The notes beneath the pieces are model-generated. The model was not told the origin of the DNA. It worked only from the letters and a program-made list of their open reading frames with translations, and searched no databases. Of a stretch of DNA of 64,000 nt, positions 40,098-62,136 are shown in pieces (position 1 is the first letter of the stretch; every line of letters begins with the position of its first letter). Position numbers and translations under genes: made by a program. The DNA comes from Hericium rajendrae (taxonomy: Eukaryota > Basidiomycota > Agaricomycetes > Russulales > Hericiaceae), in the NCBI GenBank assembly GCA_033439255.1, contig CM065890.1, positions 1,550,001 through 1,614,000 on the forward strand, given 5' to 3'.

Positions 40098-40100
40098 GCA

Positions 40101-40932: not shown

Positions 40933-41588
40933 TTGCTGGCAATGATGTTCAACTGCCTCAATCCTCGCCGCACATCCTCTGACTCATACCTATTTTCCCT
41001 GGTGCTCAATCAGACCTTCGACCAGTCACCAGCAGAAGTCCGAGTCACCCGCGAATTCACGCGCTCACCGAATCGGGGCAGCTCAGGCGATCAGCTGCCT
41101 CAGTATTTTCCACGCACGTCCATTGCTAGCAATGCATCGATCTCTGCAGTGTGTTGCAGGTCAGGCAGCGCAGCCCCTCCAGATTATGATTCCCTATCTC
41201 TACGCCCCACATCCCCCATCGAGATTGTAAATGACGACGATGACGACGACATTCAGTATCCTTCCCTATACCGTCGTCTCTCAGTACGGGCACACCAATC
41301 CTCCCTCCTGCATCCATGGTTCGTCACTAAGCGCCCCACGCCCTTCATTCGTCAAGGCCAGCTTGTCGAGCTTGCGCTCGAACATGGCGAGACCACTATC
41401 ATTACTCGTGCCCGCATCGCCTCCATCCTCTACATTGGCGCAACATGGACCCACTTCTGCGCTGAGCGCGAAGATGCAGTAGGCAGTGAGGTCACCGAAC
41501 TCAAGCTGATCGTACCTCGTATATGGAGCCAACTCCCTCGCACTCTCCCCATTCGCGACTTCTTCCGCCGTCGACCTCGGGTTGACAC
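40933..41588 (+). pseudogene. LTR-encoded ORF, 5' copy, split by the hAT-like element
   Basis: Same frame as the intact ORF in the 3' LTR, starting MLAMMFNCLNPRRTSSD. The hAT insertion falls after the codons for RRRPRVDT, and the remainder resumes beyond 44279. Two of the four LTR differences change residues here relative to the 3' copy (Thr for Met, Arg for Gln). Confidence 0.7.
41581..41588. repeat. Left 8-bp target-site duplication (GTTGACAC)
   Basis: GTTGACAC lies on both sides of the inserted element (41581-41588 and 44271-44278) and only once in the uninterrupted 3' LTR. Eight bases is the duplication length of hAT transposases. Confidence 0.93.
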
Positions 41589-44270: not shown

Positions 44271-44278
44271 GTTGACAC
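44271..44278. repeat. Right 8-bp target-site duplication (GTTGACAC)
   Basis: Partner of 41581-41588; directly follows the CCCTA end of the hAT-like element. Confidence 0.93.
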
Positions 44279-45251
44279 ACATGAGCCCTTCGACCCAGCC
44301 GGTAACAGGCAGGTTGCCGCTCACTCGTTCATCGTTCCCGTCCACCTGGAGGATGAGGAGGAGAGGGTGGTTGAGGCATACAAGCGGAGGACGTGCAAAG
44401 TGGCAATTTTGACAGGACGTAGCAGGTATGTCCTGTGATCTTAGTCGTTGGATGCGGACTCTTTCATCTAGTCAAGCCCACATTCATTCATACTCTCGTA
44501 CTATGCTCTTGCTGTTTCTTTATGCTATCAATCTTTGCTATTGCTCCATGATTATCTGCCAACTATTCCATCTCATTTATCTTCGCGCGCACTCCACCCG
44601 TCGCTTCTGCGTTATTTGCCACCATTTTTCCCCGCATATCGCCGTAAACTTCATCATTGTTCACCTCGTTACGGTAGATTATTGCATCTCGCGTGGCTTG
44701 TACAGCTACGAGCTTTGGGCCACTTACTACTTGGAAGGCTACAAAAGATGCGCATACATTATGATTCCCGCAGAGCTCAGGATAGACTATTTGATGATTG
44801 GAAAAATGCACTCATTCCTGAAAAATATTCAGCCCAGCTCTGAAAGACTCCGGAAATTCAGAGAATGATCCGGAAACTTCTATCCACTTAGTAAGGCATT
44901 TGCCAAGGCATTAATAAGCCTGCAATGACTCAACACCTGCTCTCTGTCATCCCAATTACTCAGTCCAGCCAAATATAAGCGCACAGCCTCATGGAGCTTA
45001 CCAATCATTACCAATCACATGCTCGGCTTACTCAGACACCCATTACCAAGCAGAATTTGGCTTATTAAGGCAGAAAGGTAGTATTACTAAGGAAGGAAAC
45101 AGATTACAGAGCATGTTCTGCCTTACGAAGCAGCTTATTAATCGTAGAAAAATGTAGTCCGGAAATTAAGTAGCTACAAATTTAGTAGTTAGTTCCCACA
45201 GTAGCATAGACCATGTACATATTTGGAATCTCTTTCCCACGGTCTCAGGGG

Positions 45252-45259
45252 TATATAAA
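45252..45259 (+). promoter_or_regulatory. TATA box of the 5' LTR
   Basis: TATATAAA in the last third of the LTR, so transcription likely starts near 45285 and U3 is about 1.9 kb excluding the hAT. The same box is at 59083-59090 in the 3' LTR. Two GTGGGAATAT words lie shortly downstream. Confidence 0.65.
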
Positions 45260-45969
45260 GGCCCTGAAATCGACCGGAACAGGAGGCCACATTAACCACC
45301 CCAATCCACCCCAGTTCTCAGCTTCTATTATTCCAGTCCATTCCCTACCGTGGGAATATTTTCGCTTTCAGTCCCCTAGCGTGGGAATATCCTTGTTTGA
45401 TTACCTAAGCCAGTTCTTGGAGCAACGGCTCAGACTGCAGTAACTCAGTGTTTCGTCTCACAGCCCCAATCATCCTCATCAGCCTATCTCGTTAGTCAGT
45501 AACAGGTAAAATCCCACAGGGGATAAGTTTATCTTTGTTCATCCATTGTTGCATCTAGTCTAGTCTTGCCAGACAGCTAGAAGCCCACTAAAAGTTTAGT
45601 CAAAATTCTTAGATCATATCAATTCTCAGTTCTAGCCAGCCTCGAGTCTTGACAACAGTTACCCAACATCCAGATCATCAAGTCAGCCAAGGTTGAAGCC
45701 ACTATAGGCATTCCCCTAAAATTCGGAGTATATTTCTGTTTGTTTGTATTTGTTTGCTCAAGTCTTGCACAGCTTAGAATAAACATAACCACCTCCTAAA
45801 CTCAGTCAAACAGTCCACCGTCAGCAAGAAAAGGGTATAGTATCCTACATTTTACCTCTCCCGAACAACTAGGTACATCTGGGAAAGTAGGAAAACCTGA
45901 TCGTATCTAGGATAGTGTGTTACTGAGGTATACCAACATTACTTCGGAACCCATCATCGTCACGACATC

Positions 45970-45986
45970 TGGAGCCCACCGCGAGG
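45970..45986 (+). other. Putative primer-binding site
   Basis: TGGAGCCCACCGCGAGG begins two bases after the 5' LTR. TGG is the complement of a tRNA CCA end, and this is the expected position for minus-strand priming. The matching tRNA was not identified. Confidence 0.6.
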
Positions 45987-46026
45987 GAGAGTCAATTTAA
46001 GATTGTAGGACTACCTTGTCTCCCTT

Positions 46027-49000
46027 TTGCTTCAGGTTGGACTCAACCCATTGAGTCTCCAAATCAAGTTTATGACAGGAGAACTATTCCCTTCAGGATC
46101 CATCGCATCAGATCCACCAGAGTCTTCTCAAGGAGTGGAAGTAGGATCTGCTTCTCCAATCACCTCAAGTCACCATTCCCCATCCCCTCAGTTAAATCCT
46201 GTTCACATTCCTAATCCCAATCCCATTTCCCAATCCCATATTCCTACACATCAGCGACATACTACCTCAGCTACACTGCACAGCATGGCTCCCTCAGTTT
46301 TAACCATGCCAATCCCCAACACCAAGCATGCTCCTCTCAAGTTTAAAGGGCAGTATGATATGGTGGAATATTTCATTAAAACCTATGAAGCTCTGTGCCG
46401 CCAGAATAATGTGGTCACAGATGCTGAAAAATGCGAACTCATAACCCAGTACTGTTCAAGAAAGGTCGCCAATCTAATCGAGGCTTTGCCCAGTTATCTC
46501 AGGCCTGACTTCCAACAACTCAAGACTGATCTGCTTACATACTTTGATGCGGATCGCCGAATCAAGAGATATGGTCGCAAGGACCTCCGAAAATATGTTC
46601 ATGATACCAAGTACAAGAGAATGGGTGATCTTCGTGCTTGGCGCAAATACACCAGAGGCTTCGTCAGAATTGCAGGATGGCTCAAAGCAGCTGGAAAGCT
46701 CAGCGACTATGATGAAGCTGGCTATTTCTGGTTAGGCATAGGCCCAGGACTCAGAGACAAAATTGAAGATAGGCTTATTGCTAGCTACCCCAATCATGAC
46801 CAAGCTGATCCTTTCCCCATTGATGAAGTCCAGAAAGTAGTTGAGAAAATTCTGCAACGTAACAAATTCGACATTGACATGGCAGAATCAGACTCAGACC
46901 TAGGAACTGACTGGTCTGGAGATTCAGACAGCTCAGACTCTGACTCTGAATCCTCAGATGATGAGAGGATCAGAAGGAAGAAGAAGCATTCCAAGAAATC
47001 TGGCTCCAGATCTGCAGAGAAGGAGAGGAGAGTCAAATTTGCTAAGGATGAAGAACCAGAAATAAGCAAGTTCAAGAAGTCTTCAAGCCCGAGATCAAGT
47101 TCACCTGCTCGAAAGAAAATTACCAATGAACAAGATAAAGTTGAAGACCTTATTCGCGAACTCAATACTATGCGCGCGGACGATCCGGGATACGGATTAG
47201 TTTATTACAAGGCTTGTAAACTAGATGGGGCCGTTAGAGAAGTGGTTAGCCCACCCGTTCTACGCTCAAATCAAACCGTTATGACTACGCGTGAAGTTCT
47301 TCAGCGTGATCCACCTCCGCATGTCTCGAGTGTCCCGCGCAGCATACCTCCAATAAATCGTACTAGTACAATGTCAGCCTCGCGACCACCTCCAATTCCA
47401 ACAATACGAGAACCTGCTTACCGACGCGAAGACATGACTTGCTTTGGCTGCGGCCTGAAGGGCCATGGGATGGGACTCTGCCCCGACTTACGGAGACTAG
47501 TCGATTCTGGTGAGCTCCGGCGTGACCCACAAGGACGTTACACGTACCCAAATGGTCAGCGTATTGCTCGATTTCCTGATGAGACTCTCCTTGTAGCAAT
47601 TCAGCGCGACAGGACCGCTGCCCAACGCGCTGCGGCTATGTCAAATTTTGTGACTGTGGTAGGCCTAGATGCAGAATCAGAATCCGAAAGTGATGACCAT
47701 GATAACTCACGGTATTATTTCCCCAACGAATATGCCGAGACGGACTCGGAGTACGACGTATATCCCGCGGCAAAGAATGTCGAAGAACCTAAGAGACAAA
47801 CACGTCAGTCTGCAGGAACACGAGCCAAAAAAGAAATATTCGATGGTGTCCACGTACCCTCTAGCCCAAAACAGCGCGCACGAGTCCGCGCATCGGGAAC
47901 CGATCCCCGAGGCTCACAAGTCATACCTACGGCGGATGAAGCAATGGCGGTCGATCCTCCAATGGGATCACGACCGATGAACGCACCAAGGATTCCTGGA
48001 GAACGACTTGGTCATCCCGCCAAGAAGCTCGGACGAAGCTCATGGAACGAGACGGTCGAAACTCGCCACGTACCTCGAAATGCCGATGACCCACCCTCCA
48101 TGCGCCCGATCGACACAAGAAAGCCAGCATATGATTCATCTCGGGATGAATACATTCGCGATGATGTTGAAATGGAGGTAGACAAGGAGAACTCGACAAA
48201 GAACAAGTCAGTAAAGCGATCGGATACGTCACCTTCAAAGAACGACGTACCGGTGCCCGAGATCAAACGGCAAGTCCGCCGTTCGGCCATATCCTCCATC
48301 GTGGAACCCTCCAAGGTCCTCGCACGAGTCTTAGAGTCTCCTATCCAGCTGAAAGTCGGTGAGGTCATCGGGATTTCAAAGGAAATATCTCAGATACTTA
48401 CCGATAGCCTGAAGTTCAAATCTCCTGAGTCTAATCCCATCGCAGCCATGACCGCGGTAGCCATGGTCGGCGGAGGAGAAGGAGACGGGCATGAGAGCCC
48501 GTGGCTCGAGAACTTTCCGAAGGTCGGAAGACCACTGCAAAGGGAGTCCCGGTCAAGCGCGCCGACACGCGTAACGTTTAAACAAGCAAGACATAGCTCA
48601 CCTGGTAGGCACGACTTGCAGGGCGACTTAATACGAATCCGCGTGCGATGTGGAGACAAACCTATTACAGCTATTGTAGACACCGGCTCACAATTAAATG
48701 TAGTGAACCGGCAGGTATGGCGGGAATCCATAGACATCCCGTGCGACATGGCAAAGACTGTGCAGATGAAAGACGCGAACGGTCAGAGTAAGGAGTTACG
48801 CGGACTAGTCCAGAACGTACCTTTGTCAATTGGGAGCCTCAACACAGAAGCCGACCTCTTCTGCGGGGACCATGTTCCATTCCCCATGCTCCTCGGACGA
48901 CCCTGGCAAAGGCAGAACTTTGTTACGATAGACGAGCGGTCGGAAGGAACTTACCTCGTATTCAAAGACCCCTGGGATGTCTCTAAGTCACGTTTCGAGG

Positions 49001-51981
49001 TCATGGTGGATTACCACGTACCCTCGAGCGCAGAAGCTCAATACCTGCAAGCACGACCCACATCTCAAGTATATTCCGCGACGATCGAGGATAACGACGT
49101 ACCTGTGTTATTGAATACCTTGCAGATTACAGGCACCGACGCGCCTGATCAAAACGAGTTAGATAAGATCCCGGAGGCAGATCGGGGCAAGGCACCCAGA
49201 TCCTCGGATCAGATCCAATCTCTGATCGACCCCACCGGAGGTATCCCCGAGGCCGACACCGATCTCATTCTACTAGATTCCTCTGTCTTGTCCTATCCTC
49301 CTCCCGCCACGTATTCCCTCACCGATTTTCAAGGCGCACTTGACTTATTACGCCTCAAGGGTTATCCGGTGAGTACTAGGCTCACTTTGGATGACATAAC
49401 CGAATTTTTAGATATAAATACGAGCCAAGACGGCTCTGCTGAGTCGGCTTGGCCACTCCCGCTTCCACCTCCCGAGTACGTCCCTCAGCCATCGCCCATT
49501 TCCATTGATAAATTCGCCTTCAACTTCATTCCCGTTCGCGAGCGTCGCGCTCAGCTCCATCCCGTTCAGTGGACCGGCGCGTATCGCGGAGGCTCTCCAT
49601 TCGAACTCATCTCGCGTGCTTGGGCCGATCGAGGCTACTTGCGCGACACATCTCAAGTCTCTCAGGCTCTGCTCAACTCGAGCGAGGCCATTCTTCTTCA
49701 CGAGGATCGCGTAGACGGACCGACTGGTAAGCCTTATGCTGATTTAATTATGCTTGAAGCGACCTTAGTCCTCGCTCAGCCAAATCAAGACGTTCACATC
49801 GAGTGTGGTACCGCGCGGATTAGTTTCCACCCGCGGGACGCCGGAGTGTACGTACCACCTCACATGTCACCTGAGCCACTTCATCGAGCCTTAATTCCAG
49901 TTTTTGCACATCATCCGTCCGCGGAAGACCTTTCTGATATGGCGCGTCGCATGCACGGCAGGATCTATCCCCCTGCAGACGCGATCGTGCAACAGCACAC
50001 CAACGAACTCGTGCCCACACAGCCCAACACCCCCGAGCCCGAGGCAGGATCCTCCCAGATCCTCTCAAGACCCACTCTTCCCCGCCAGCCTTCTTTTATC
50101 GACGTCATGGCTCACTATGGAGCCACGATCACGTCCAACGAACTTCGCGAAACCATTGGACCTTTGGCGCCGCTTGTCAGCGGCATCCAGGAAGACAATC
50201 GACGCTTCCACATGTCCGAGCTCCCACCCGCCGTCCTGCGCCAGCACGTCGACCATATGATCACCAAGCGTAAGCTCAGGGACGTCGCGGATAATGTTGC
50301 CATCGAGAATTTCAAGCGAATGTGCCCTGATGAGGACCTAGAACCTGAGCTTGTCCAAGAGTTCTTGCATCGCCGTGATCCACTGGAATTTGAGGAGACC
50401 AAAGAGCCTGAGGCCGATGAAGACCAGGAGATGGAGGAAGGATCCTCCCAGCCGATGAATCCCGGAGAATCGCAAGCCCAGGAGCCCGCTGGAGATGTAT
50501 TGGATGAGATTGCAGAGGAGGGTCTGATGGAGCGTCTGAGGGAGCAGGAGGCCGACATAGTGGAGGTAGACCTGACGGGTATGTCCCCAGGCCTCACCAA
50601 CCACTTCATTTCCACTTATCGACAAAATCTCGTCTGGCTCGACAAAGGTACACGCCCTGTCCTTCGTTTCTTGAAGTCGCACCCTGCCTTCAGAGGTCGT
50701 TTCCCAAACGCACCATCCACGTCCTCGCGGGAATCACCTTCGACATCGTCTGACTCTGAGCCCACGCATGCTGAGCCCGAAGACGTTCAATCCGCCTCAG
50801 TGCTATTCGCTGCTGATGTTAAGCTATCGACGGACTCGCTGCACGAATCAACATTTTCCCTCCATGAAGGTGATGCCCGGGAAACATTCTATGCTCACAC
50901 CATTGTCGACCCCACTCGTTATAAAACGTGCATCGACGATTCCGACTCTGATGCTTCGGAAACGAGTAGTGGCGCTTCAAGCATCGGAACCACTCTCGTT
51001 CACGTCTCTGGACGATCGACGCCAGCTAGTATGCCGTCTCTCGTCGCTATGAGCGAGTCCCCGGAACCCCTCGACGATTATCTTCATGATTCAGTACCTC
51101 CGCGCGAAGTCCCGATTATTGTGCACGAGCCCCGTGGTCCTCATGGCCCAGGCATTATCATTGACGACAAGCCCCTTCATCCTGACCAGCCTGCATACCG
51201 ACGCGAAGGCCCCTGGATCATCAATAACAAGACCGAGGCAGTGGTCTCGACAGATGAAGAACCTCCTCCGTACGGCGCGAAGATCCTCCCATTCCTCAGC
51301 AACGTTTTTGACGAGCTTCGGCGGAACTCACCGGACTCCCTTCATATCTTATTCCCTGACTTATGCGTCAACCACGCCGGCGAACCTATCCTTCCGATTC
51401 CGCGAACTGAATCCTTTAATCCACCTACAAAGCCCCAGGACACGCAGGCCTTCAAAGAGAGGATGCACGTTCAAATGATCAATGGCAACGCAATTGTCCA
51501 GCAGCCCGCACTATTCGACTCCATGTTTTGTATGTACTCCTTCTGGTACCAGCGTTATCATACCTTCGTCGAGAATCTACTCGACAACCTGGACGAGATT
51601 ATGAAGGAACCCCCACTCACTCTGGACCTTCTCAAGCGCATTCGTGACCCGGCAATGGAACAACTTCGCCAGCACCTTGAGTGTGCACGCCAAAAACCTC
51701 CGCGACCATCATTCTTCCATGTCGAGGAAGTCCGATTCCTCCAAGCACTTGCCGCACTGTATAACCTCTGGGGTCGTGCCGCCTTTGCTGAAGGTATCGA
51801 CGGTATCCTCCACCTCCAGTACGGCGATGACTTCGTCATCTCGCAGCTTCGTCAGTCAGGAATCCTTCTCCCCAAGTACCCGTACAGATCATACTTCGAG
51901 CGCCTTCGCAATGCCGAGCAACGTCTTGTTGCCCGATTCAATCAGCAAATGGGTCTGGCGCGTGGAGAGGCCTATCACTAG
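46027..51981 (+). CDS. Gag-protease polyprotein with a long C-terminal extension, 1,984 residues
   Basis: Structural and protease part of the retrotransposon. Residues from about 110 to 250 look like a Gag capsid region (YFIKTYEALCRQNNVV, then RKYVHDTKYKRMGDLRAW). An acidic Ser/Asp tract at about 285-320 leads into a Lys-rich segment. A zinc knuckle CFGCGLKGHGMGLC (CX2CX4HX4C) is near residue 472. A retropepsin-like active site IVDTGSQLNVVN is near residue 884, with MLLGRPWQ some 60 residues later as the ILG-type motif. The remaining thousand residues are Pro/Glu-rich and unrecognised. The true start may be the ATG at 46072 or 46285. Base composition shifts near 47150 from AT-rich to GC-richer. 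A GTGAGC donor-like site begins at 51983, just past the stop. Confidence 0.9.
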   Translation: MLQVGLNPLSLQIKFMTGELFPSGSIASDPPESSQGVEVGSASPITSSHHSPSPQLNPVHIPNPNPISQSHIPTHQRHTTSATLHSMAPSVLTMPIPNTKHAPLKFKGQYDMVEYFIKTYEALCRQNNVVTDAEKCELITQYCSRKVANLIEALPSYLRPDFQQLKTDLLTYFDADRRIKRYGRKDLRKYVHDTKYKRMGDLRAWRKYTRGFVRIAGWLKAAGKLSDYDEAGYFWLGIGPGLRDKIEDRLIASYPNHDQADPFPIDEVQKVVEKILQRNKFDIDMAESDSDLGTDWSGDSDSSDSDSESSDDERIRRKKKHSKKSGSRSAEKERRVKFAKDEEPEISKFKKSSSPRSSSPARKKITNEQDKVEDLIRELNTMRADDPGYGLVYYKACKLDGAVREVVSPPVLRSNQTVMTTREVLQRDPPPHVSSVPRSIPPINRTSTMSASRPPPIPTIREPAYRREDMTCFGCGLKGHGMGLCPDLRRLVDSGELRRDPQGRYTYPNGQRIARFPDETLLVAIQRDRTAAQRAAAMSNFVTVVGLDAESESESDDHDNSRYYFPNEYAETDSEYDVYPAAKNVEEPKRQTRQSAGTRAKKEIFDGVHVPSSPKQRARVRASGTDPRGSQVIPTADEAMAVDPPMGSRPMNAPRIPGERLGHPAKKLGRSSWNETVETRHVPRNADDPPSMRPIDTRKPAYDSSRDEYIRDDVEMEVDKENSTKNKSVKRSDTSPSKNDVPVPEIKRQVRRSAISSIVEPSKVLARVLESPIQLKVGEVIGISKEISQILTDSLKFKSPESNPIAAMTAVAMVGGGEGDGHESPWLENFPKVGRPLQRESRSSAPTRVTFKQARHSSPGRHDLQGDLIRIRVRCGDKPITAIVDTGSQLNVVNRQVWRESIDIPCDMAKTVQMKDANGQSKELRGLVQNVPLSIGSLNTEADLFCGDHVPFPMLLGRPWQRQNFVTIDERSEGTYLVFKDPWDVSKSRFEVMVDYHVPSSAEAQYLQARPTSQVYSATIEDNDVPVLLNTLQITGTDAPDQNELDKIPEADRGKAPRSSDQIQSLIDPTGGIPEADTDLILLDSSVLSYPPPATYSLTDFQGALDLLRLKGYPVSTRLTLDDITEFLDINTSQDGSAESAWPLPLPPPEYVPQPSPISIDKFAFNFIPVRERRAQLHPVQWTGAYRGGSPFELISRAWADRGYLRDTSQVSQALLNSSEAILLHEDRVDGPTGKPYADLIMLEATLVLAQPNQDVHIECGTARISFHPRDAGVYVPPHMSPEPLHRALIPVFAHHPSAEDLSDMARRMHGRIYPPADAIVQQHTNELVPTQPNTPEPEAGSSQILSRPTLPRQPSFIDVMAHYGATITSNELRETIGPLAPLVSGIQEDNRRFHMSELPPAVLRQHVDHMITKRKLRDVADNVAIENFKRMCPDEDLEPELVQEFLHRRDPLEFEETKEPEADEDQEMEEGSSQPMNPGESQAQEPAGDVLDEIAEEGLMERLREQEADIVEVDLTGMSPGLTNHFISTYRQNLVWLDKGTRPVLRFLKSHPAFRGRFPNAPSTSSRESPSTSSDSEPTHAEPEDVQSASVLFAADVKLSTDSLHESTFSLHEGDARETFYAHTIVDPTRYKTCIDDSDSDASETSSGASSIGTTLVHVSGRSTPASMPSLVAMSESPEPLDDYLHDSVPPREVPIIVHEPRGPHGPGIIIDDKPLHPDQPAYRREGPWIINNKTEAVVSTDEEPPPYGAKILPFLSNVFDELRRNSPDSLHILFPDLCVNHAGEPILPIPRTESFNPPTKPQDTQAFKERMHVQMINGNAIVQQPALFDSMFCMYSFWYQRYHTFVENLLDNLDEIMKEPPLTLDLLKRIRDPAMEQLRQHLECARQKPPRPSFFHVEEVRFLQALAALYNLWGRAAFAEGIDGILHLQYGDDFVISQLRQSGILLPKYPYRSYFERLRNAEQRLVARFNQQMGLARGEAYH

Positions 51982-52091
51982 GGTGAGCCTCCATTCGTGT
52001 TTGGAAGTTCCGGGCATTTTCTTATAAAGTTCCCCGCGCCCGCAATCCAGCCTCGCCCCGCGACTCCAACAACACGCGGATCTCAAGCTAG

Positions 52092-52129
52092 AAAATCCAG
52101 AAAAATCGTAAAACTCCCAAATTAAATTC
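52092..52129 (+). repeat. Spacer direct repeat, copy 1
   Basis: AT-rich segment containing AAAAATCGTAAAACTCCCAA; closely matched about 167 bp downstream. Confidence 0.65.
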
Positions 52130-52258
52130 AGTAACGACTTTCATACGCCACGTCTCCGCCTCTATCGTTTCGCGCGACGCGCACCAATACTTTTTTTCTT
52201 GTGCAGTTTAACAGATTTTATTTCGTGCTCACAGGAGTCCGGAAGATACATGCCCACC

Positions 52259-52297
52259 AAAAACCCATAAAAAATCGTAAAATTCCCAAATCAACTC
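52259..52297 (+). repeat. Spacer direct repeat, copy 2
   Basis: Contains AAAAATCGTAAAATTCCCAA, matching 52092-52129 with a few substitutions; suggests a tandem duplication of about 167 bp. Confidence 0.65.
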
Positions 52298-53741
52298 TAG
52301 CGTCGTCTTCGCGACCCATTCTTTGATTACGCCGAGCACTTTCTGGTTCAATGGTCTAGTTTGTTTTACAGGTCCTCTTCTATGCCACGCCTTCCTCCTC
52401 AAGCTTCAAGTCCCGGTTTTTCCCTCTCTTGTTTTTTTTTAGGTGTTCTCTTTCCTCTGCCTGTCCAATGTACGTCAGCTCTTCACATCCGCCATCATTC
52501 CCCACCCCCTTCTGTTCTTGCTGGCCATCATTCATTCGGGCGCGATGACAAGTTCCAGTCTGGTCTCGCACCCGACAAGGACGACTTCAACCCCAACTCG
52601 GAAATCAATTACCCCAGGGCAGGTACCCTCTCGACATCTTGCTTCCTCCATCAGCCACACATCGATTCATTGCTCGGACCCAGCCTCAAGTCCGAGCGCT
52701 CGATTAGAAGCTGTCGAGCTGTCTGATCGAAGGCACCTCAAGGCAGTCGCGTGTCCGATCACGACGACTGTCTATATAAATTCTCGTCCCCATCATTCAA
52801 CTCTTTCAAGACCAGTATCGGCAGCATTGTACGATTAGGGGTGAGTCATCGAGTCTCCCTCGATAGGCTCAGTACTCACCACTCTTCGAAGCGATGACCT
52901 CCCGTTCTTTCGACCCATAGGTGGTCCGTTTCGTGCCTCATCTTTTCTTTCTCCATCTATGCCTCCCCTCGCAGTTCTATTCCGACGTCACTTCGTTCTT
53001 GAGCAATTATCCTAAATACGAGTGCTTGCGATGATCCTTACAAGATGCAATTTAACTCAAGTGAGCATGCCTCGTTCCGTGATCAGGACGGACTATGTGA
53101 CTCACCCCTTGCTAGAAAAAGAATGAAATTTCCTAAAAAAACCTGCGCACCCGGCGCACTCCATAGACGTTCCCCTCCCTCGTACTGTCGCAGTCGCTGC
53201 ATCGCAAGCAACGAGGCTCGTCGACGGACCGCGCCTCGCGGTCCCGCGTACAAGCCCCGAGGCTGGCATTGTTCGACTTGTACGTCTCTCGTTTGTCGTG
53301 CATACGCTGGTGTTTGCTTATCTGCTGCTTGCGTCCTTTCCACTCGACACCATCGCCTTGCACGAATCAGGCAAATTGTTCATCCAGTTCCCCACTCCTT
53401 TTCCCGGCGTCATCGAATCTTTGGCCTCGACAACGCGTGCGCTCAAATTCCCCGCGCAGGCTTGGGACGTTTTTTTTCGGTGCTCATTCTACATTCGAGT
53501 TGTATCTACGACTGTTCCTTAGTCTTAATGCATTTTGTTTGTGACCGAAATGTGTTCCCGTCCGACGACGGACTCCTTCTAAGTTGAATCCCCAGGACAG
53601 CCTTTCCGAGAATTTTGCCCTTTTGAAGATATCGTGCCTTGCAAATACCTTCAATAAATCACACTATCAGTTGCGTTGACATATTCACTAAGCCCTTACA
53701 TTTTGCTCTCAGAGCTTGCCTCCTCAAGGCCTTAAAGATTT

Positions 53742-53812
53742 CTGGCATCACCGAAAATCGAACCACGGACCTCACACAAATCAGACGCCTGATGCTAAGC
53801 GCCTCGGCTCTC
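53742..53812 (-). repeat. tRNA-like relic
   Basis: On the minus strand a 71-nt segment ends GGTCCGTGGTTCGATTTTCG followed by GTGATGCCA, resembling a tRNA T-arm (B box GGTTCGAnTCC) and CCA-like 3' end. A D-arm-like GCCGAGGCGCTTAGC lies upstream. The acceptor arms do not pair and the anticodon arm is degenerate, so it is not a working tRNA. Confidence 0.3.
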
Positions 53813-53816
53813 ATTT

Positions 53817-53836
53817 AAAAAAAAAAAAAAAAAAAA
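53817..53836 (+). repeat. A20 homopolymer flanked by GGCTCTC direct repeats
   Basis: Twenty A residues preceded by ATTT. GGCTCTC occurs at 53806-53812 and again at 53837-53843. The layout resembles the tail of a retroposed sequence with a short duplication. Confidence 0.6.
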
Positions 53837-53880
53837 GGCTCTCGACTTAAGTCAATTCTAGAGTTCTGACTTTTGACTCT

Positions 53881-56800
53881 ATGGATCTCAAGTCTTATAA
53901 TATCAATTCTGTGATCTTTCCTCTATCTAAGAAAATCAAGAAATACATGAAAATCTTCACCGCATATAAGAGAGTGGACAAGAAAGTCAAACCTGTCGCA
54001 GGCACATTTCCAGAAGATGCGCGAGTTGCACGAAGATTTCCAGAAGACCCGTTGGCTTCTTTACCCACTTTGACCCCATTTCCCCCTGAATTTATTCCTT
54101 CTGAGAAAATGACCCTGGACTATATAAAGCAGCTTGAAATAAATAAAGATGGATTCCTATGGCCTGAAGAAGAAAAACTATTTCAGCATATCATGGTCCT
54201 AAATCGTGAAAGTTTAGCCTTTGCTGAAATTGAACGTGGAACCCTCAAGGAATCCTACTTCACCCCATATATTATCCCAACAGTTCCACATGCCCCTTGG
54301 GTGTGTAGGAATATACCCATCCCTCCAGGTATAAAAGACAAAGTTATTGAACTCCTTAAAGATAAAATCGCTGCAGGTGTATATGAGCCAAGTCAGTCTG
54401 CATACTGTTCAAGCTGGTTTTGCGTGTTGAAGAAAAATGGAAAACTTCGAATTGTTCATGACCTCCAGCCCCTTAATAAGGTTACAATCCGTGATGCTGG
54501 ACTTCCACCAATTGTTGATGATTTCGTTGAACCCTTCGCTGGATGCTCGTGCAGTACGGTCTTTGATTTATTCTGGGGATTCGATGCCAGAAAAGTACAT
54601 CCAGAAAGTCGAGACCTTACAGCTTTTAGAACACCTTTAGGATTGCTAAGAATCACATCCATGCCCATGGGATTTACAAATTCTCCAGCAGAATTTCAGA
54701 ATTGCATGACCTTTATCCTTCAGCCTGAAATTCCTGAAAAAGCCAACATCTTTATTGATGATTTAGGAATTCGTGGCCCTCCGACCACATATCCTGATTC
54801 CAAAGGAAATCCTAAAGTACTCAAGGAAAATCCAGGAATCAGGAGATTTATTTGGGAACATGCTCAGGATGTTCACCGCATTATGCATCGTATCAAGCAT
54901 GCAGGTGGAACCTTTGCTCCCAATAAAGCCCAAATTAGTAGACCAGATGTTCTCATTGTCGGTCAAAAATGTACACCTCTAGGGAGAGTGCCTGAGGACA
55001 AGAAAGTTGAAAAGATTCTTGCCTGGCCACCTTTAAAAACCTCCACAGAAGTTAGAGGGTTCTTAGGACTGTGTGGAACTGTGCGCATTTGGATCCCAAA
55101 TTATTCCAAGATAGCCAGACCTCTCACAGAACTAATTCGTCGTGAAGAAGCCTTTCTATGGGATCAGAGAAGACAAGAAGCCTTTGACACCCTGAAAAAA
55201 CTAGTCACCTCAGCTCCCGCCCTACGTCCAATTGATTATCACTCAGGCCAGCCGGTCATACTTTCAGTTGACTCAAGTTATATTGCAGTAGGATTTATTT
55301 TATCCCAGCTTGACAATGAAGGACGTCGACGCCCTGCTCGTTACGGATCTCTACCCATGTCAGAAGTCGAGTCAAGATATTCTCAGCCCAAGTTAGAGTT
55401 ATTTGGACTTTACCGAGCCCTCCGTCACTACAGTTTATACATCGTTGGACTCACCAATTTCTTTGTCGAAGTTGATGCTAAATACATTAAAGGAATGTTG
55501 AACTCTCCAGACATCCAGCCAAATGCAGCTGTCAATAGATGGATTCAAGGCATTCTCATGTTTGATTTCACACTCGTTCATGTCCCTGCAGATAAGCACA
55601 AAGGCCCAGATGCCTTGTCACGTCGACGCCTTGCAGATGATGAAGAAGCTGATTTTGATAATGATGAATGGCTCGACAACATTGCCCTTTATCTAGGATC
55701 AAAACCAGAAGATTTATCTCCAGACAACAATATGTCCAGTTCATATTCACTTTCAAATCTACCCTCAGTTTTGACCTCCACCATTACCCAGCAGGATGAA
55801 ACCCTGCTTCATGTTTTCAAGTTTCTTAGGACACTTGAGTATCCTTCCACTTCTATGTCAATTCAGCAACAGAAGAGATTCCTAAAGAAAGTATCCCAGT
55901 TCTTTGTCAAAGGAGGAATCTTATTCAAACGGAATTCAACTCGACCCCCTCTTAAAGTTATATTCAAAGCATCTCAACGGAATTCAATTATGATTGATGC
56001 GCATGAGAATCTTGGTCACCGTGGAGAAATAGCAGTATTTGAGACCATAAGGACAAGATTCTTCTGGCCATACATGCGTGCTGATATCAAACACCATATT
56101 GCATCATGCCATGAATGTCAAATCAGAAGCACCAAAAGAATTGAACTTCCTCTCATAATCTCTACCCCTTCCACAATTTGGACTAGAGTCTATATTGATG
56201 TCATGCATATGCCAAAAGCAGCAGGATTTACTCACATAGTCGCAGCACGAGATGACCTATCACGAGCCTCAGAAGGACGAGCTTTGACAAGGGTTACCTC
56301 AAAAGCTCTTTCTAATTTCTTTTGGGAACAACTCTACTGCAGATATGGAGCCATAGGTCAAGTTACAACTGACAATGGACCTGAAGTCAGAGCAGCCTTT
56401 AGTGAGCTAATGGACAGGTTAGGACTTCCACATATCCCAATATCCCCATATAATTCCAAAGCAAATGGAGTAGTCGAACGAGGTCATTATGTTATCCGAG
56501 AAGCCATAGTCAAGTCATGCAATCACAAGATGAGCAAGTGGCCAGAGAAGGTAGCAGAAGCATTCTTTGCTGACAAAGTTACCACAAGTCAGGTCACAGG
56601 ATTTTCCCCCTATTACCTCCTGCATGGAATAGAACCTGTCCTCCCATTTGATTTAACAGAAGCCACTTTCATGGTTGAAGGATTTAAGTCAGGAATGTCT
56701 CCTGAAGATCTGCTCGTCTTACGTATGAGGCAATTAGGCAAGAGATCACAAGATTTGAAACATGCTGCTTTCAAGCTCAGTCAATATCGCATGAAGTCAA

Positions 56801-57153
56801 AGGAAGAATTTGAGAAAAAGTTCTTCGCCAAGCTAGTCACCAAAGATTTCAAGCCTGGAGACTTAGTCCTGCTTAGGAATACTCAGGTTGAGAAGAGTAT
56901 GAATCGCAAAGCCAAGCCACGATACCTTGGACCTTATGAAATTGATCGTCGCACCCAAGGAGGATCATATGTCCTTAAAGAGTTAAGTGGTGTAGTCATG
57001 AGAGATGCCGTCGCTGCTTTCAGACTAGTCCCTTATATTGCACGCGATCAGAAGAGACTCAAGAAGTTGATGTCTACAAATTATGATGCAGAAGATTCTG
57101 AGAATGATTCTGAGAAAATGGATGATGCAGATATATTAGACGCCGAAGAATAA
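53881..57153 (+). CDS. Pol polyprotein: reverse transcriptase, RNase H, integrase (1,090 residues)
   Basis: Copies element RNA and integrates the cDNA. RT (about residues 140-380) shows SWFCVLKKNGKLRIVHDLQP, then GFTNSPAEFQNCM, and the catalytic box as FIDDLGI near residue 292, with Phe in place of the usual Tyr of YxDD. RNase H follows (VILSVDSSYIAVGFILSQLD, then FFVEVDAKYIKG and HKGPDALSRR). Integrase has an HHCC zinc domain (HENLGHRGE, then CHECQIRS) and the DDE core: IDVMHM near 770, TTDNGPE near 830, GVVERGH near 864. A GPY/F-like end, RYLGPYEIDRR, follows. The frame is intact with its own ATG, separated by 1.9 kb from Gag-protease, so it is not reached by simple frameshifting. Confidence 0.95.
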   Translation: MDLKSYNINSVIFPLSKKIKKYMKIFTAYKRVDKKVKPVAGTFPEDARVARRFPEDPLASLPTLTPFPPEFIPSEKMTLDYIKQLEINKDGFLWPEEEKLFQHIMVLNRESLAFAEIERGTLKESYFTPYIIPTVPHAPWVCRNIPIPPGIKDKVIELLKDKIAAGVYEPSQSAYCSSWFCVLKKNGKLRIVHDLQPLNKVTIRDAGLPPIVDDFVEPFAGCSCSTVFDLFWGFDARKVHPESRDLTAFRTPLGLLRITSMPMGFTNSPAEFQNCMTFILQPEIPEKANIFIDDLGIRGPPTTYPDSKGNPKVLKENPGIRRFIWEHAQDVHRIMHRIKHAGGTFAPNKAQISRPDVLIVGQKCTPLGRVPEDKKVEKILAWPPLKTSTEVRGFLGLCGTVRIWIPNYSKIARPLTELIRREEAFLWDQRRQEAFDTLKKLVTSAPALRPIDYHSGQPVILSVDSSYIAVGFILSQLDNEGRRRPARYGSLPMSEVESRYSQPKLELFGLYRALRHYSLYIVGLTNFFVEVDAKYIKGMLNSPDIQPNAAVNRWIQGILMFDFTLVHVPADKHKGPDALSRRRLADDEEADFDNDEWLDNIALYLGSKPEDLSPDNNMSSSYSLSNLPSVLTSTITQQDETLLHVFKFLRTLEYPSTSMSIQQQKRFLKKVSQFFVKGGILFKRNSTRPPLKVIFKASQRNSIMIDAHENLGHRGEIAVFETIRTRFFWPYMRADIKHHIASCHECQIRSTKRIELPLIISTPSTIWTRVYIDVMHMPKAAGFTHIVAARDDLSRASEGRALTRVTSKALSNFFWEQLYCRYGAIGQVTTDNGPEVRAAFSELMDRLGLPHIPISPYNSKANGVVERGHYVIREAIVKSCNHKMSKWPEKVAEAFFADKVTTSQVTGFSPYYLLHGIEPVLPFDLTEATFMVEGFKSGMSPEDLLVLRMRQLGKRSQDLKHAAFKLSQYRMKSKEEFEKKFFAKLVTKDFKPGDLVLLRNTQVEKSMNRKAKPRYLGPYEIDRRTQGGSYVLKELSGVVMRDAVAAFRLVPYIARDQKRLKKLMSTNYDAEDSENDSEKMDDADILDAEE

Positions 57154-57217
57154 GCCAATCAGTTGCACCCTTATTGTATGGCAACCGAGGACGGTTGATT
57201 TTCAAGTTCCCCGCGGA
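57154..57217 (+). other. Short stretch between Pol and 3' LTR; polypurine tract not obvious
   Basis: Expected site of the polypurine tract for plus-strand priming. Only a weak purine run (CGAGGACGG) is visible, and the bases directly before the LTR are TTCCCCGCGGA, which is not purine-rich. Confidence 0.4.
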
Positions 57218-57453
57218 TGTCGCGCCCAAAACCCGTTTTGAGCATTGACATGATCGATTTAGCAAACTCAACAGCCCCAGAGATTGGCAAAGATCGAAAG
57301 ACCGATCAGCAAGTACCAAGAAATTGATGAGAGCCTAGACTCAGGGCTTCGAATTGATTACCGTTAAGCGCGTAGCTAGACGCTCAAGATCTGGCAACGC
57401 TCGATCATTAAGCGAAAGCCATATTAGAGTAGCATGCGAACACGAGACTTTGT

Positions 57454-58269
57454 TTGCTGGCAATGATGTTCAACTGCCTCAATCCTCGCCGCACATCCTC
57501 TGACTCATACCTATTTTCCCTGGTGCTCAATCAGACCTTCGACCAGTCACCAGCAGAAGTCCGAGTCACCCGCGAATTCATGCGCTCACCGAATCAGGGC
57601 AGCTCAGGCGATCAGCTGCCTCAGTATTTTCCACGCACGTCCATTGCTAGCAATGCATCGATCTCTGCAGTGTGTTGCAGGTCAGGCAGCGCAGCCCCTC
57701 CAGATTATGATTCCCTATCTCTACGCCCCACATCCCCCATCGAGATTGTAAATGACGACGATGACGACGACATTCAGTATCCTTCCCTATACCGTCGTCT
57801 CTCAGTACGGGCACACCAATCCTCCCTCCTGCATCCATGGTTCGTCACTAAGCGCCCCACGCCCTTCATTCGTCAAGGCCAGCTTGTCGAGCTTGCGCTC
57901 GAACATGGCGAGACCACTATCATTACTCGTGCCCGCATCGCCTCCATCCTCTACATTGGCGCAACATGGACCCACTTCTGCGCTGAGCGCGAAGATGCAG
58001 TAGGCAGTGAGGTCACCGAACTCAAGCTGATCGTACCTCGTATATGGAGCCAACTCCCTCGCACTCTCCCCATTCGCGACTTCTTCCGCCGTCGACCTCG
58101 GGTTGACACACATGAGCCCTTCGACCCAGCCGGTAACAGGCAGGTTGCCGCTCACTCATTCATCGTTCCCGTCCACCTGGAGGATGAGGAGGAGAGGGTG
58201 GTTGAGGCATACAAGCGGAGGACGTGCAAAGTGGCAATTTTGACAGGACGTAGCAGGTATGTCCTGTGA
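57454..58269 (+). CDS. LTR-encoded ORF of unknown function, intact copy (271 residues)
   Basis: Runs from MLAMMFNCLNPRRTSSDS to a stop shortly after CKVAILTGRSRY, entirely within U3, upstream of the LTR TATA box. It has an acidic Asp run (NDDDDDDIQYPSLYRRL) and a globular-looking part (IRQGQLVELALEHGETTI, then WTHFCAEREDAVGSEV). A good donor (GTATGT at 58258) lies just before the stop, and downstream frames (YELWATYYLEGYKR at about 58540; QKMRIHYDSRRAQDRLFDDW at about 58580) look like a further exon, so a spliced product of over 300 residues is likely. No known domain was recognised. It may be a captured host gene. Confidence 0.55.
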   Translation: MLAMMFNCLNPRRTSSDSYLFSLVLNQTFDQSPAEVRVTREFMRSPNQGSSGDQLPQYFPRTSIASNASISAVCCRSGSAAPPDYDSLSLRPTSPIEIVNDDDDDDIQYPSLYRRLSVRAHQSSLLHPWFVTKRPTPFIRQGQLVELALEHGETTIITRARIASILYIGATWTHFCAEREDAVGSEVTELKLIVPRIWSQLPRTLPIRDFFRRRPRVDTHEPFDPAGNRQVAAHSFIVPVHLEDEEERVVEAYKRRTCKVAILTGRSRYVL

Positions 58270-59082
58270 TCTTAGTCGTTGGATGCGGACTCTTTCATCT
58301 AGTCAAGCCCACATTCATTCATACTCTCGTACTATGCTCTTGCTGTTTCTTTATGCTATCAATCTTTGCTATTGCTCCATGATTATCTGCCAACTATTCC
58401 ATCTCATTTATCTTCGCGCGCACTCCACCCGTCGCTTCTGCGTTATTTGCCACCATTTTTCCCCGCATATCGCCGTAAACTTCATCATTGTTCACCTCGT
58501 TACGGTAGATTATTGCATCTCGCGTGGCTTGTACAGCTACGAGCTTTGGGCCACTTACTACTTGGAAGGCTACAAAAGATGCGCATACATTATGATTCCC
58601 GCAGAGCTCAGGATAGACTATTTGATGATTGGAAAAATGCACTCATTCCTGAAAAATATTCAGCCCAGCTCTGAAAGACTCCGGAAATTCAGAGAATGAT
58701 CCGGAAACTTCTATCCACTTAGTAAGGCATTTGCCAAGGCATTAATAAGCCTGCAATGACTCAACACCTGCTCTCTGTCATCCCAATTACTCAGTCCAGC
58801 CAAATATAAGCGCACAGCCTCATGGAGCTTACCAATCATTACCAATCACATGCTCGGCTTACTCAGACACCCATTACCAAGCAGAATTTGGCTTATTAAG
58901 GCAGAAAGGTAGTATTACTAAGGAAGGAAACAGATTACAGAGCATGTTCTGCCTTACGAAGCAGCTTATTAATCGTAGAAAAATGTAGTCCGGAAATTAA
59001 GTAGCTACAAATTTAGTAGTTAGTTCCCACAGTAGCATAGACCATGTACATATTTGGAATCTCTTTCCCACGGTCTCAGGGG

Positions 59083-59090
59083 TATATAAA
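59083..59090 (+). promoter_or_regulatory. TATA box of the 3' LTR
   Basis: TATATAAA, identical in context to the 5' LTR box. In the 3' LTR it could drive read-through into the outer element. Confidence 0.6.
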
Positions 59091-59608
59091 GGCCCTGAAA
59101 TCGACCGGAACAGGAGGCCACATTAACCACCCCAATCCACCCCAGTTCTCAGCTTCTATTATTCCAGTCCATTCCCTACCGTGGGAATATTTTCGCTTTC
59201 AGTCCCCTAGCGTGGGAATATCCTTGTTTGATTACCTAAGCCAGTTCTTGGAGCAACGGCTCAGACTGCAGTAACTCAGTGTTTCGTCTCACAGCCCCAA
59301 TCATCCTCATCAGCCTATCTCGTTAGTCAGTAACAGGTAAAATCCCACAGGGGATAAGTTTATCTTTGTTCATCCATTGTTGCATCTAGTCTAGTCTTGC
59401 CAGACAGCTAGAAGCCCACTAAAAGTTTAGTCAAAATTCTTAGATCATATCAATTCTCAGTTCTAGCCAGCCTCGAGTCTCGACAACAGTTACCCAACAT
59501 CCAGATCATCAAGTCAGCCAAGGTTGAAGCCACTATAGGCATTCCCCTAAAATTCGGAGTATATTTCTGTTTGTTTGTATTTGTTTGCTCAAGTCTTGCA
59601 CAGCTTAG

Positions 59609-59614
59609 AATAAA
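59609..59614 (+). terminator. Polyadenylation signal in the 3' LTR
   Basis: AATAAA about 520 nt after the LTR TATA box, about 185 nt before the LTR end. The 5' LTR copy is at 45778-45783. The spacing gives an R region of several hundred bases. Confidence 0.55.
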
Positions 59615-59798
59615 CATAACCACCTCCTAAACTCAGTCAAACAGTCCACCGTCAGCAAGAAAAGGGTATAGTATCCTACATTTTACCTCTCCCGAACAAC
59701 TAGGTACATCTGGGAAAGTAGGAAAACCTGATCGTATCTAGGATAGTGTGTTACTGAGGTATACCAACATTACTTCGGAACCCATCATCGTCACGACA

Positions 59799-59802
59799 CC
59801 GT
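59799..59802. repeat. Right target-site duplication of the LTR retrotransposon (CCGT)
   Basis: Partner of 40693-40696. Confidence 0.75.
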
Positions 59803-60260
59803 GCGCGGCTGTGGTGCGCATGAGGCATGGTGCGCACGCATGCGGCGTGGTGCGCTCAAGTGGGGTCTTGTCCCCGCGTGCGGGGCCTTGTGCACGCATG
59901 CAAGACATTGCGCACGCGGCAAAGAGATGCGGCATAGGTGCAGGGCGCTGTGCGCGCATACGAGGCTTGGGGCGCGCGGGCGGGACGTTGTACGCATGGG
60001 GAGGCACGCGGCCGGGCGTGGCGGATATGTCCCGGACGTTGCGCGGGAGGGCTGGGTGTTGTGTGCGTGTGCGAGGTGTGGGGCGCGAGCGCTAGGGTTG
60101 CACGCATGGGCGGGGTGTTGCTCGAGCAGGCGAGGGGCGTTGCCCATGCATACGGGGCGTTGAGGGCAAGTTCGGGGCGTAAGGCACGCGGGCGGGATGT
60201 TGCGCGCGATCCAGGCCTTTGTGCGTGCATGCGGGGCGTGAGGCGAGCGTGCGGGGCCGG
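59803..60260 (+). repeat. Degenerate GC-rich tandem repeat, about 20-bp unit
   Basis: Roughly twenty imperfect units resembling TGCGCGCATGCGGGGCGTTG. The period is not a multiple of three, so the open frames across it are not meaningful. Similar G-rich words occur left of the retrotransposon at 40500-40690, so the retrotransposon probably landed in this array. Confidence 0.65.
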
Positions 60261-60277
60261 GAGCACGAACGACATCC

Positions 60278-60305
60278 GAGTCCCGTTGCTACGGCAACGA
60301 GACTC
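60278..60305 (-). repeat. Hairpin H4
   Basis: Arms GAGTCCCGTTGC and GCAACGAGACTC around TACG. The single mismatch is a U-G wobble on the minus strand. No clear intron-like flank. Confidence 0.5.
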
Positions 60306-60607
60306 TACGGCGCGCGGACGGGCGGTGACGTAGCCCATGCGCGCATCGTTGACAGCATGTAGGCGGCGTGGAACGCGGCCCGTGCGTAGACCGTGGCTGT
60401 GCGGGCGAAAGGGGGTATCGGGGTGCGGGTGACGAGGCGGTTTGGGCGCGGGGCGTTGGGGTTGCGCGCGTAGGCAGCAGGAGACATTGGCGGCGTCGTT
60501 GGGAAGGCGGAGGGGCGTAACTAACGGCGAAGGGGACGACGGTGACATGGGATGGGCGACGGGAGACGTGGAGGTGTCGATGGAGGACGTGGAGGTGTCG
60601 AAACAAC

Positions 60608-60635
60608 GAGTGTCGCTCGAAAACGAGCGACACTC
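60608..60635 (-). repeat. Hairpin cassette H5
   Basis: Perfect 12-nt arms GAGTGTCGCTCG and CGAGCGACACTC around AAAA. On the minus strand it is preceded by an intron-like segment starting AGGTAAGT (about 60683) with TACTAAT (about 60645). Confidence 0.65.
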
Positions 60636-61058
60636 TGTATTAGTACGAAGAGATAATGAAATAGCATAACTTTTACTTACCTGCCACCTTCTGCCTGCTG
60701 CAATTCCATTCCTGCCGTGTTGATGCTCGAGAGACGACGAAAGAAGGGGACAGAGGGAAGGAACACGGAGGAGAAGGGAGAGTGGTGAGAGAGTGTTAAG
60801 TCTCGACGCGTTGTCTCGGTGCTTCAGCCACCGAATCCGCGAAAGGACTCAACAAATCGAGTAAAATAGCTATAAATACGAAACAAAAGGAAAAGAGATA
60901 TATCGTATATCTAAGTGCAATACATGAGCTACATTTGTAGCAAGCTTACGGTATATTACTGGACAGTAGGGTCAAGACAACAAAATCTAATACTTAGCCT
61001 CTGACGCGGCGCTCGGCAATGCCCGGCAGCCACGATTCTCGGCTTCGCCCGGGATTCG

Positions 61059-61067
61059 TATATAAGG
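61059..61067 (+). promoter_or_regulatory. TATA box of the micro-intron module
   Basis: TATATAAGG in a GC-rich context, followed by a CT-rich leader and TCGTCG/GCTCGC microsatellite-like repeats. It suggests an RNA polymerase II promoter about 170 nt upstream of the first intron-like segment. Confidence 0.5.
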
Positions 61068-61089
61068 CGCGCGCGACGCGCGTTGCCTC

Positions 61090-61538
61090 TTACTCTTTAA
61101 TCCCCACCATCTCTTGCCACGTCGATGCTTCGTCGTCGTCGTTGCTCGCTTGTTGTCGTTGCTCGCTCGCTCGCTCATCATCGTTGCTCACTCGCTCGTC
61201 GTCGTTTATTGCTCATTGTTGCTATATTTATTAAGGTAAGCTTATATTCTTAATCTCTTATGTCTTGTGCTAATGTCTTCATACTTGTTACAGTGCCTTT
61301 GTATGCTTACTAGGTAAGCTTTATCTTGTCTTATACTAATGTCTTCAAATTGTCTTGTAGATTTTCGCTTTTGTGTCAGTTTAGTAAGCTTTTATATGTT
61401 ATCTTTGTTATCTTTTAATATTAATGTTTTTCCTTAGAAATTTTCGCACTTTTGTAGTACTGGCAAGTCTTATAATGTTTAATATTAATCTTTTATTATC
61501 TTGTATTATGTAATATAATGTTGTAGTTAGTCAATAAA
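61090..61538 (+). ncRNA. Candidate non-coding transcript with four tandem intron-like segments and 20-25-nt micro-exons
   Basis: After the TATA box a first exon would end at 61235. Intron-like segments follow at 61236-61293, 61314-61360, 61384-61437 and 61463-61526. Three start GTAAGC and the fourth GCAAGT. Their branch-like sites are TGCTAAT, TACTAAT, TATTAAT and TATTAAT, and they end CAG, TAG, TAG and TAG. The intervening exons are 20, 23 and 25 nt; the last two are similar (ATTTTCGC followed by CTTTTGT or ACTTTTGT), so the array may have grown by tandem duplication. AATAAA follows at 61533-61538. No coding potential is apparent. Transcription is inferred only. Confidence 0.4.
61533..61538 (+). 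terminator. AATAAA after the micro-intron module
   Basis: A polyadenylation hexamer 7 nt after the last intron-like segment, on the same strand. Confidence 0.4.
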
Positions 61539-61539
61539 A

Positions 61540-61932
61540 ATCTTGCTGTTCTTTATCTTTTGTGTGATCTTTATGTATTGTTTACTTTATGAATATGTAG
61601 ATATGTGTAAAATTTTATTAAGTCTAGTATGACTATAAATTCATATTATAACATTGTCATCTATTATGAATATATAGAGTACTCAGCTAATTGTAATCAC
61701 CAGAGCATCTATAATATCTGTAGTGAATATAATCTATATAGCTATTCTCATAGCTCTATAGCTATGTCTTGTAGCTCTATAGCTATCATAGCACTCTATA
61801 GCTATCCTAAGTAGCTCTATAGCACTCTATAGATGACCCCCTTCTATGGCCATCTATAGAATAGGTGGCATAGCTATGGCCCTATGACATTTATATAATC
61901 TATATAGAGCTCTATAGCCATGTGGATTTTCT
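61540..61932. repeat. AT-rich tract of CTATAGCT words (right end of outer element)
   Basis: Dense in CTCTATAGCTAT and TATAGC words, mirroring the left tract at 40101-40480. Confidence 0.6.
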
Positions 61933-62136
61933 CAGATGAGCCCTCTGATTTTCCCATTTGCGGCGCCTGAAGGCGATACCTGGGCCCTCGAAACCCACGC
62001 CCTGGGCACGTTCATTACACCCAGGGGCATCGTCACCGACATTGGCATTGCTCTTGGCCATCGGGGTCCAGAGACCTTTGATGTAGCTGCCCACAGCGCC
62101 CCCCCTCATCGTTCCACCGACCCCTCCGGACCCTGA
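61933..62136 (+). pseudogene. Right-hand piece of the interrupted hypothetical frame
   Basis: Reads SPLIFPFAAPEGDTWALETH and then GTFITPRGIVTDIGIALGHR before a stop. It can follow the left piece (HRPAAADFS) in phase if the insertion is removed at a shared AG. Coding-like composition; family not recognised. Confidence 0.35.

Follow-up and report, generated by a model that had tools for sequence, protein, structure and literature searches.

The window, the whole 64,000-nucleotide stretch of DNA analysed here, contains a DNA transposon of about 3 kb with the ends CATCTGA..TCAGATG. A tandem array of short introns and microexons lies inside it, in agreement with a sequence-only reading of this DNA that had placed the array in an outer mobile element. 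The window copy spans 40099–61938 and later insertions interrupt its inside, so that the outer element is seen as the following parts:

40099–40111, plus strand: left terminal inverted repeat CATCTGAAAAATC, with target duplication AG at 40097–40098
40099–40357, plus strand: left end of the outer transposon, TA-rich with CTATAG subterminal repeats, the alignable part before the nested insertions
44271–59798, plus strand: Ty3/gypsy LTR retrotransposon that splits the outer element, LTRs at 44271–45967 and 58102–59798, outside the array
59799–61938, plus strand: the outer transposon's right fragment; other copies align with it from about 60183–60320 onward
61926–61938, plus strand: right terminal inverted repeat ATTTTCTCAGATG, with target duplication AG at 61939–61940

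The Ty3/gypsy insertion has reverse transcriptase, RNase H and integrase domains, and with LTRs that are 99.88% identical over 1697 bp it is a young element. Part of its inside recurs at 40697–41588, 99.8% identical to 57218–58109.

Comparison of 20 loci gave the fixed ends CATCTGA(A/G)AAA.. and ..TTT(C/T)TCAGATG. An exact 2-bp target duplication flanks 19 of 23 full copies, the window copy included, and a 3-bp duplication flanks none of them; 22 of the 23 copies with both ends are 2.7–3.1 kb long. In the source genome, 46.77 Mb on 19 contigs, the 601 bp around the array have at least 41 matching places (40 of 305 candidates scored), and 18 genome matches of this query enter the comparisons below partly or not at all. 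The end pattern CATCTGARAAAWTY has 223 matches genome-wide and its reversed form has none.

From left to right, the element consists of TA-rich CTATAG repeats, a GC-rich stretch of about 1 kb, minus-strand features and a plus-strand promoter with the array. The array lies about 400–700 bp inward of the right end and is followed by a poly(A) signal (in subfamily A) and then by the TA-rich right end. About eight full-length members outside the subfamily of the window copy share this layout and the length of 2.7–3.1 kb (L021B, L035D, L036E, L036F, L037E2, L037H, L040G). The GC-rich part (59850–60600 in the window, 3080–3900 in L009) resembles degenerate repeats of about 20 bp (GCGCGCATGCGGGGNGTTG-like) and is CpG-rich and fast evolving. 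Some elements form head-to-head pairs a few hundred bp apart with their right ends outermost (L036, 142–2873 and 3235–6349; L037, 89–2920 and 3681–6645).

The array and its conservation among copies

In the window copy, the array and the signals around it are composed of:

61059–61065, plus strand: TATATAA, within a conserved core promoter and leader start (61000–61119)
61236–61293, plus strand: intron 1, 58 nt, GTAAGC..ACAG; the aligned columns show two intact ends in 27 of 33 copies
61294–61313, plus strand: microexon 2, 20 nt, ATTTTCGC motif absent
61314–61360, plus strand: intron 2, 47 nt, GTAAGC..GTAG; both ends intact in 21 of 33 copies
61361–61383, plus strand: microexon 3, 23 nt, with ATTTTCGCTTTTG at its start
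61384–61437, plus strand: intron 3, 54 nt, GTAAGC..TTAG; both ends intact in 17 of 33 copies
61438–61462, plus strand: microexon 4, 25 nt, with ATTTTCGCACTTT inside
61463–61526, plus strand: intron 4, 64 nt, GCAAGT..GTAG; both ends intact in 25 of 33 copies
61533–61538, plus strand: AATAAA poly(A) signal

The sequence-only reading had described four consecutive introns of fungal type, each with donor, branch-like site and acceptor, framed by TATA and AATAAA. Both framing signals are read directly in the sequence and all four introns are present. Introns 1–3 are chained by a strict model (G[TC]AAG[TC], then [CT]T[AG]A[TC], then YAG). No strict chain of three or more arose when the local 400 bp were put through 5000 dinucleotide shuffles, and 200 shuffles of all 64 kb gave strict chains of at most two. 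A looser model returned exactly four segments, of 58, 47, 54 and 64 nt. The GT donor of that description is present in introns 1–3 (GTAAGC). Intron 4 has a GC instead of a GT donor (GCAAGT, common to six other copies among the 33) and ends at a substitute AG (61526) because the usual acceptor of the family is deleted in the window copy.

A motif recurs in microexons. In 32 members, 83.7 kb altogether, ATTTTCGCTTTTT with at most 2 mismatches has 62 matches from +80 to +560 relative to the TATA box, one match elsewhere and none on the reverse strand. Every one of the 32 members has at least one match, and in 51 of the 62 G[TC]AAG occurs within the next 22 nt; a few of the 62 lie beyond the array proper, e.g. 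at +505 in L040G and +413 in L038x. Microexons of L042 and L043 start with ATTTTCGCTTTTTT directly after the AG, or close to that. When up to 3 mismatches are allowed, the whole genome has 230 matches to YAGNNNNTTTTCGCTTTTTN9GGTAAG and 3 to the reversed pattern.

The array had also been suggested to be a non-coding RNA, and the tests run agree with a non-coding array. Among the longer ORFs of the full copies compared, no frame of at least 170 codons was consistently common to the subfamilies. A leader ATG is found in only 11 of 33 copies, and the predicted spliced RNA of L014A has no ORF beyond its open leader, whose frame runs for 47 codons to a stop in microexon 2. Long minus-strand ORFs in the GC-rich part of most members were rejected as coding, with blastp between subfamilies returning only short or shifted similarities. 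The predicted spliced L014A RNA, the one member folded, folds no better than shuffles (z −0.1). Rfam covariance models gave 0 matches at gathering score within the window, and at E values up to 5 the interval 60200–61940 had one chance-level match, to mir-122 (E 4.4).

Conservation between subfamilies is uneven along the element. Identity to L009A in the 60 bp at the upstream part of the TATA block (1981–2040) is 0.92 for L021B, 0.95 for L035D, 0.85 for L036E and 0.58 for L036F. Over the array (2221–2400) L021B and L035D are mostly at 0.57–0.82, and directly behind it (2401–2640) these two drop to 0.25–0.40, with many other stretches near 0.3–0.5; between subfamilies in general, identity after the array is down to 0.25–0.53. 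The array of L036F is at background (0.40–0.47), yet its donors, acceptors and microexon motifs are readable, and array-region blastn matches of L037H cover its two microexons only (L037 656–697 and 559–627). Intron bodies of the divergent subfamilies are at background identity, while donors, most acceptors and the microexon motif are kept. The same array plan recurs in further lineages (L038 4200–4800, L042 and L043). Under the looser model, 26 of 35 members have plus-strand chains of at least two introns, and the reverse strand never has a chain longer than one in any of the 35.

Single columns were compared in an alignment of 33 rows, which left out the truncated L027A and L020x and could not take in L036F, L037H, L038, L042 and L043. 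Many copies are decayed: all four introns are canonical in 6 copies, three in 11, two in 8, one in 6 and none in 2. The intron 3 acceptor is absent from the aligned column in subfamilies B and C. At the +2 base of the intron 4 donor, 23 of 33 rows have T and 7 have C, both usable donors. Mismatch in splice columns versus other intron columns was 0.064 vs. 0.102 in subfamily A (620 of 20000), 0.152 vs. 0.166 in 15 subfamily representatives (5979 of 20000, not significant) and 0.124 vs. 0.148 in all 33 copies (2901 of 20000). Donors alone gave 0.049, 0.091 and 0.076 for the same three sets (795, 197 and 136 of 20000). Across subfamilies only the donors stand out when letters are not matched, and aligned acceptors are worse than other intron columns (0.213 vs. 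0.166). This unmatched comparison is confounded, since T columns, the majority in introns, vary less (0.087) than A (0.191), C (0.206) or G columns (0.278). Each splice-core column was therefore compared, under strict counting, with array columns of the same majority letter. Mismatch was then 0.113 vs. 0.197 in the 33 copies (11 of 20000) and 0.054 vs. 0.114 in the 20 copies of subfamily A (83 of 20000), figures that describe columns and not independent events because the rows are related by descent and some are nearly identical. The sequence-only reading had staked its proposal on splice sites that are conserved in other copies, and they are indeed kept beyond the letter-matched background.

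Growth by intron–exon duplication, likewise proposed from the sequence, is borne out for part of the units. When donor, branch and acceptor were fixed and the rest was shuffled 1000 times, no shuffle reached the likeness of two adjacent unit pairs, 1/2 in L036F and 2/3 in L014A, and for these two arrays growth by unit duplication is well supported at the sequence level. Two more pairs are weakly alike (1/2 in L014A and 1/2 in L037H, with 22 and 40 of 1000 shuffles), and three are not alike (1/3 in L014A, 2/3 and 1/3 in L036F, with 182, 240 and 286 of 1000 among the three). Loss is seen as well: L025A has cleanly lost exactly one intron and microexon unit between two GGTAAGC sites, and L019A is without a stretch spanning one microexon. 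In L036F an AG is missing at the microexon of unit 1, and a canonical donor is missing from unit 2. Because neither the AG of the duplicated first microexon nor the donor that follows it has survived, the first two units of L036F may be read as one longer intron.

Relation to known elements

The element resembles PlavakaB, fungal DNA transposons of the CMC superfamily, in its CATC..GATG ends and 2-bp target duplication; a passage of PMC12730594 gives PlavakaB the termini CATCA..TGATG and a target duplication of 2 or 3 bp. It differs in its fifth terminal base, which is T and not A (CATCTGA, 23 full copies), and in having a conserved putative RNA gene instead of a transposase, which was found in no member examined. 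On account of these two differences we name it PlavakaB-like and not a member of PlavakaB. CACTA/EnSpm elements were rejected because they require the ends CACTA/CACTG (the CACTA core is named in PMC1636069). KDZ elements (Zisupton) were rejected because they need the 8-bp target duplication given for Zisupton in PMC12730594; here it is 2 bp, and extension to 3 bp fails in 23 of 23 copies.

We infer a mobiliser for the element. The source genome has 132 Plavaka and 172 KDZ domain matches; judged by this richness and by the type of its introns, it probably belongs to a basidiomycete. No autonomous partner with matching ends was found among the TIR matches listed (two end patterns, candidate pairs 6–10 kb apart). 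Candidate large coding elements at L035, L036, L037 and L038/L039 proved to be either a pair of ~3-kb elements or a single one next to a Helitron-like gene. The Plavaka genes beside L040 and in L041 were rejected as partners as they have no matching ends. At L035, an 889-codon ORF (617–3283) with matches to DUF6570 and Helitron_like_N starts 464 bp inside a lone CATCTGAAAAATTTGCC end.

An introner is an intron in its own right that arises by inserting into a gene, and its splice sites are at or near the element ends. The introns described here lie within a larger element and none is at its ends, and an introner was rejected on this ground. In Cryptococcus, poorly spliced introns in transposon transcripts feed RNA interference. 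The likeness is that introns of a transposon RNA may be the contact point with host silencing; the Cryptococcus transposons are protein-coding, whereas here consensus introns lie in a putative non-coding RNA. Transposon RNA, introns and silencing in Cryptococcus are the subject of PMC6643885 and PMC5851062, and a passage of PMC9860276 ties introners, as mobile DNA, to short introns. Stwintrons of Hypoxylaceae and Xylariaceae are treated as cases of fungal intron duplication in passages of PMC12403724 and PMC8469720; they are nested, whereas the introns of the array stand side by side with microexons between them. No description of a transposon with a tandem intron and microexon RNA gene was found in the open-access literature, with some search terms perhaps too narrow and subscription papers and Repbase outside the scope.

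A putative spliced RNA and a possible divergent one

Comparison of the copies establishes the transposon with its ends and target duplications, the conservation of promoter, splice sites and motif, and the lack of a common protein frame. On these sequence data we consider it likely that the array is a spliced non-coding RNA gene of repeated microexons, transcribed by RNA polymerase II and carried on a non-autonomous PlavakaB-like transposon. Transcription and splicing of the array would proceed as follows. Initiation by RNA polymerase II would occur a little downstream of the conserved TATA box, and the spliceosome would take out two to four introns of about 45–90 nt. The mature RNA would then be a pyrimidine-rich leader joined to a string of 20–31-nt microexons, one to three of them with AUUUUCGCUUUUU. 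Array length would shift via gain or loss of whole intron and microexon units, and the element would be retained if a functional RNA gene improves the persistence or spread of the copies that have it. The repeated U-rich motif might act multivalently on an RNA-binding or silencing factor of the host, as its docking site or as a decoy, a guess that we hold to be rather unlikely.

Several results argue for the reading as an RNA gene. The TATA block and the array are kept between subfamilies while the stretch after the array decays; added to this are the letter-matched splice conservation, the array-bound motif, the intron chains on the plus strand only and the genome matches (230 vs. 3). Against it stand the weak unmatched column test, the fact that only 6 of 33 copies are fully canonical, the missing motif of microexon 2, the shifted intron 3 acceptor in subfamilies B and C, the broken units of L036F and the lack of an autonomous partner among the listed candidates.

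Non-autonomous elements often originate via internal deletion, and with so many Plavaka and KDZ matches in the genome the array could be the leftover 5' end of a lost transposase gene, a functionless leader with its first small exons. This is unlikely, as a relic would not be kept while its flanks reach background and about eight members outside the window subfamily share the layout; moreover, no coding copy was found among the loci compared and subfamily A has a poly(A) signal after the array. The segments could also be a feature of the DNA itself that merely looks like introns, either T-rich repeats near the promoter or binding sites for proteins. The T-richness of the array and the weak unmatched column test would suit such a feature, but chains of donor, branch and acceptor at intron spacing that shuffles do not reach, letter-matched conservation, a tolerated donor change to exactly GC and the absence of reverse-strand chains make it very unlikely.

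Short introns can lead lives of their own and introns fill most of the array, and the sequence-only reading had entertained the introns as the product, e.g. as intron-derived small RNAs with the microexons as spacers. We give this a slight chance, since the intron bodies decay to background between subfamilies while the microexon motif persists, which indicates the exons as the product. An even smaller chance is left for a spliced RNA that encodes a small peptide: the leader frame is open in copies with an ATG, closing in microexon 2 in L014A, but two thirds of the copies have no such ATG (present in 11 of 33), leader indels are frequent and the motif lies in different frames in successive exons.

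The putative non-coding RNA of the plus strand may have a divergent counterpart, to which the following feature belongs:

60606–60637, minus strand: hairpin H2, which shows compensatory changes between members and closely follows a donor (60675–60680) and a branch-like site (60639–60645)

The order on the minus strand is the same across members, with the donor followed by the branch-like site and H2 directly after it. The donor has GT in 15 of 16 rows with sequence there, and L018A has ATAAGT. Among 21 chosen members, of which 17 are distinct, both partners change in 8 of the 14 pairs of H2, and the covariation score is 0.215 vs. 0.125 in shuffles (reached in 0 of 500), a signal that sliding the partners destroys; a measure of further pair types is no higher than in shuffles (457 of 500). 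In a wider scan 25 of 32 members have an H2 that reaches the score threshold, with the hairpin at −449 to −490 relative to the TATA box. Of the seven below it, four have less than 500 bp of upstream sequence, L040G has an imperfect hairpin (9 of 12 pairs) and L026A and L016A have none. A 500-nt minus-strand region of L014A, the one member folded, folds better than shuffles (z −3.2).

According to a passage of PMC4299874, the 3' end of telomerase RNA is made in some fungi by a donor and a branch site at which splicing does not run to completion. Because donor, branch-like site and hairpin occur together here, a telomerase RNA was considered for the minus strand; it was rejected as no template-like sequence was noticed on reading, and telomerase RNA serves as an analogy for 3'-end formation. 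By this analogy, a divergent non-coding RNA on the minus strand, perhaps with spliceosomal 3'-end formation, is possible.

All parts taken jointly, the elements might be a class of mobile non-coding RNA genes with two RNAs per element, a proposal that we put forward tentatively and hold to be rather unlikely. The transposon family, with at least some hundred copies, would spread with no protein of its own and owe its survival to its RNAs. On the plus strand tandem unit duplication would build a spliced RNA of repeated 20–31-nt modules, on the minus strand the 3' end of the RNA may be cut by the spliceosome as for telomerase RNA in some fungi, and both RNAs together would disarm or redirect a host factor. 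The usual view holds non-autonomous transposons to be passengers whose inside is irrelevant. Since promoter, splice sites, microexon motif and opposite-strand hairpin outlast their surroundings across diverged subfamilies, we argue that an RNA is part of the persistence of the element. The arrays are also a countable natural series of duplication and loss of intron and exon units, and bear on the origin of tandem introns and microexons.

A second inverted repeat, H1 (GAGTCCCGTTGC..GCAACGGGACTC type), lies at 60278–60305 in the window and at −754 to −830 in other members. At that place 11 or 12 of 12 pairs are formed in 10 of 15 members scanned, and L038x has a similar repeat at −597.
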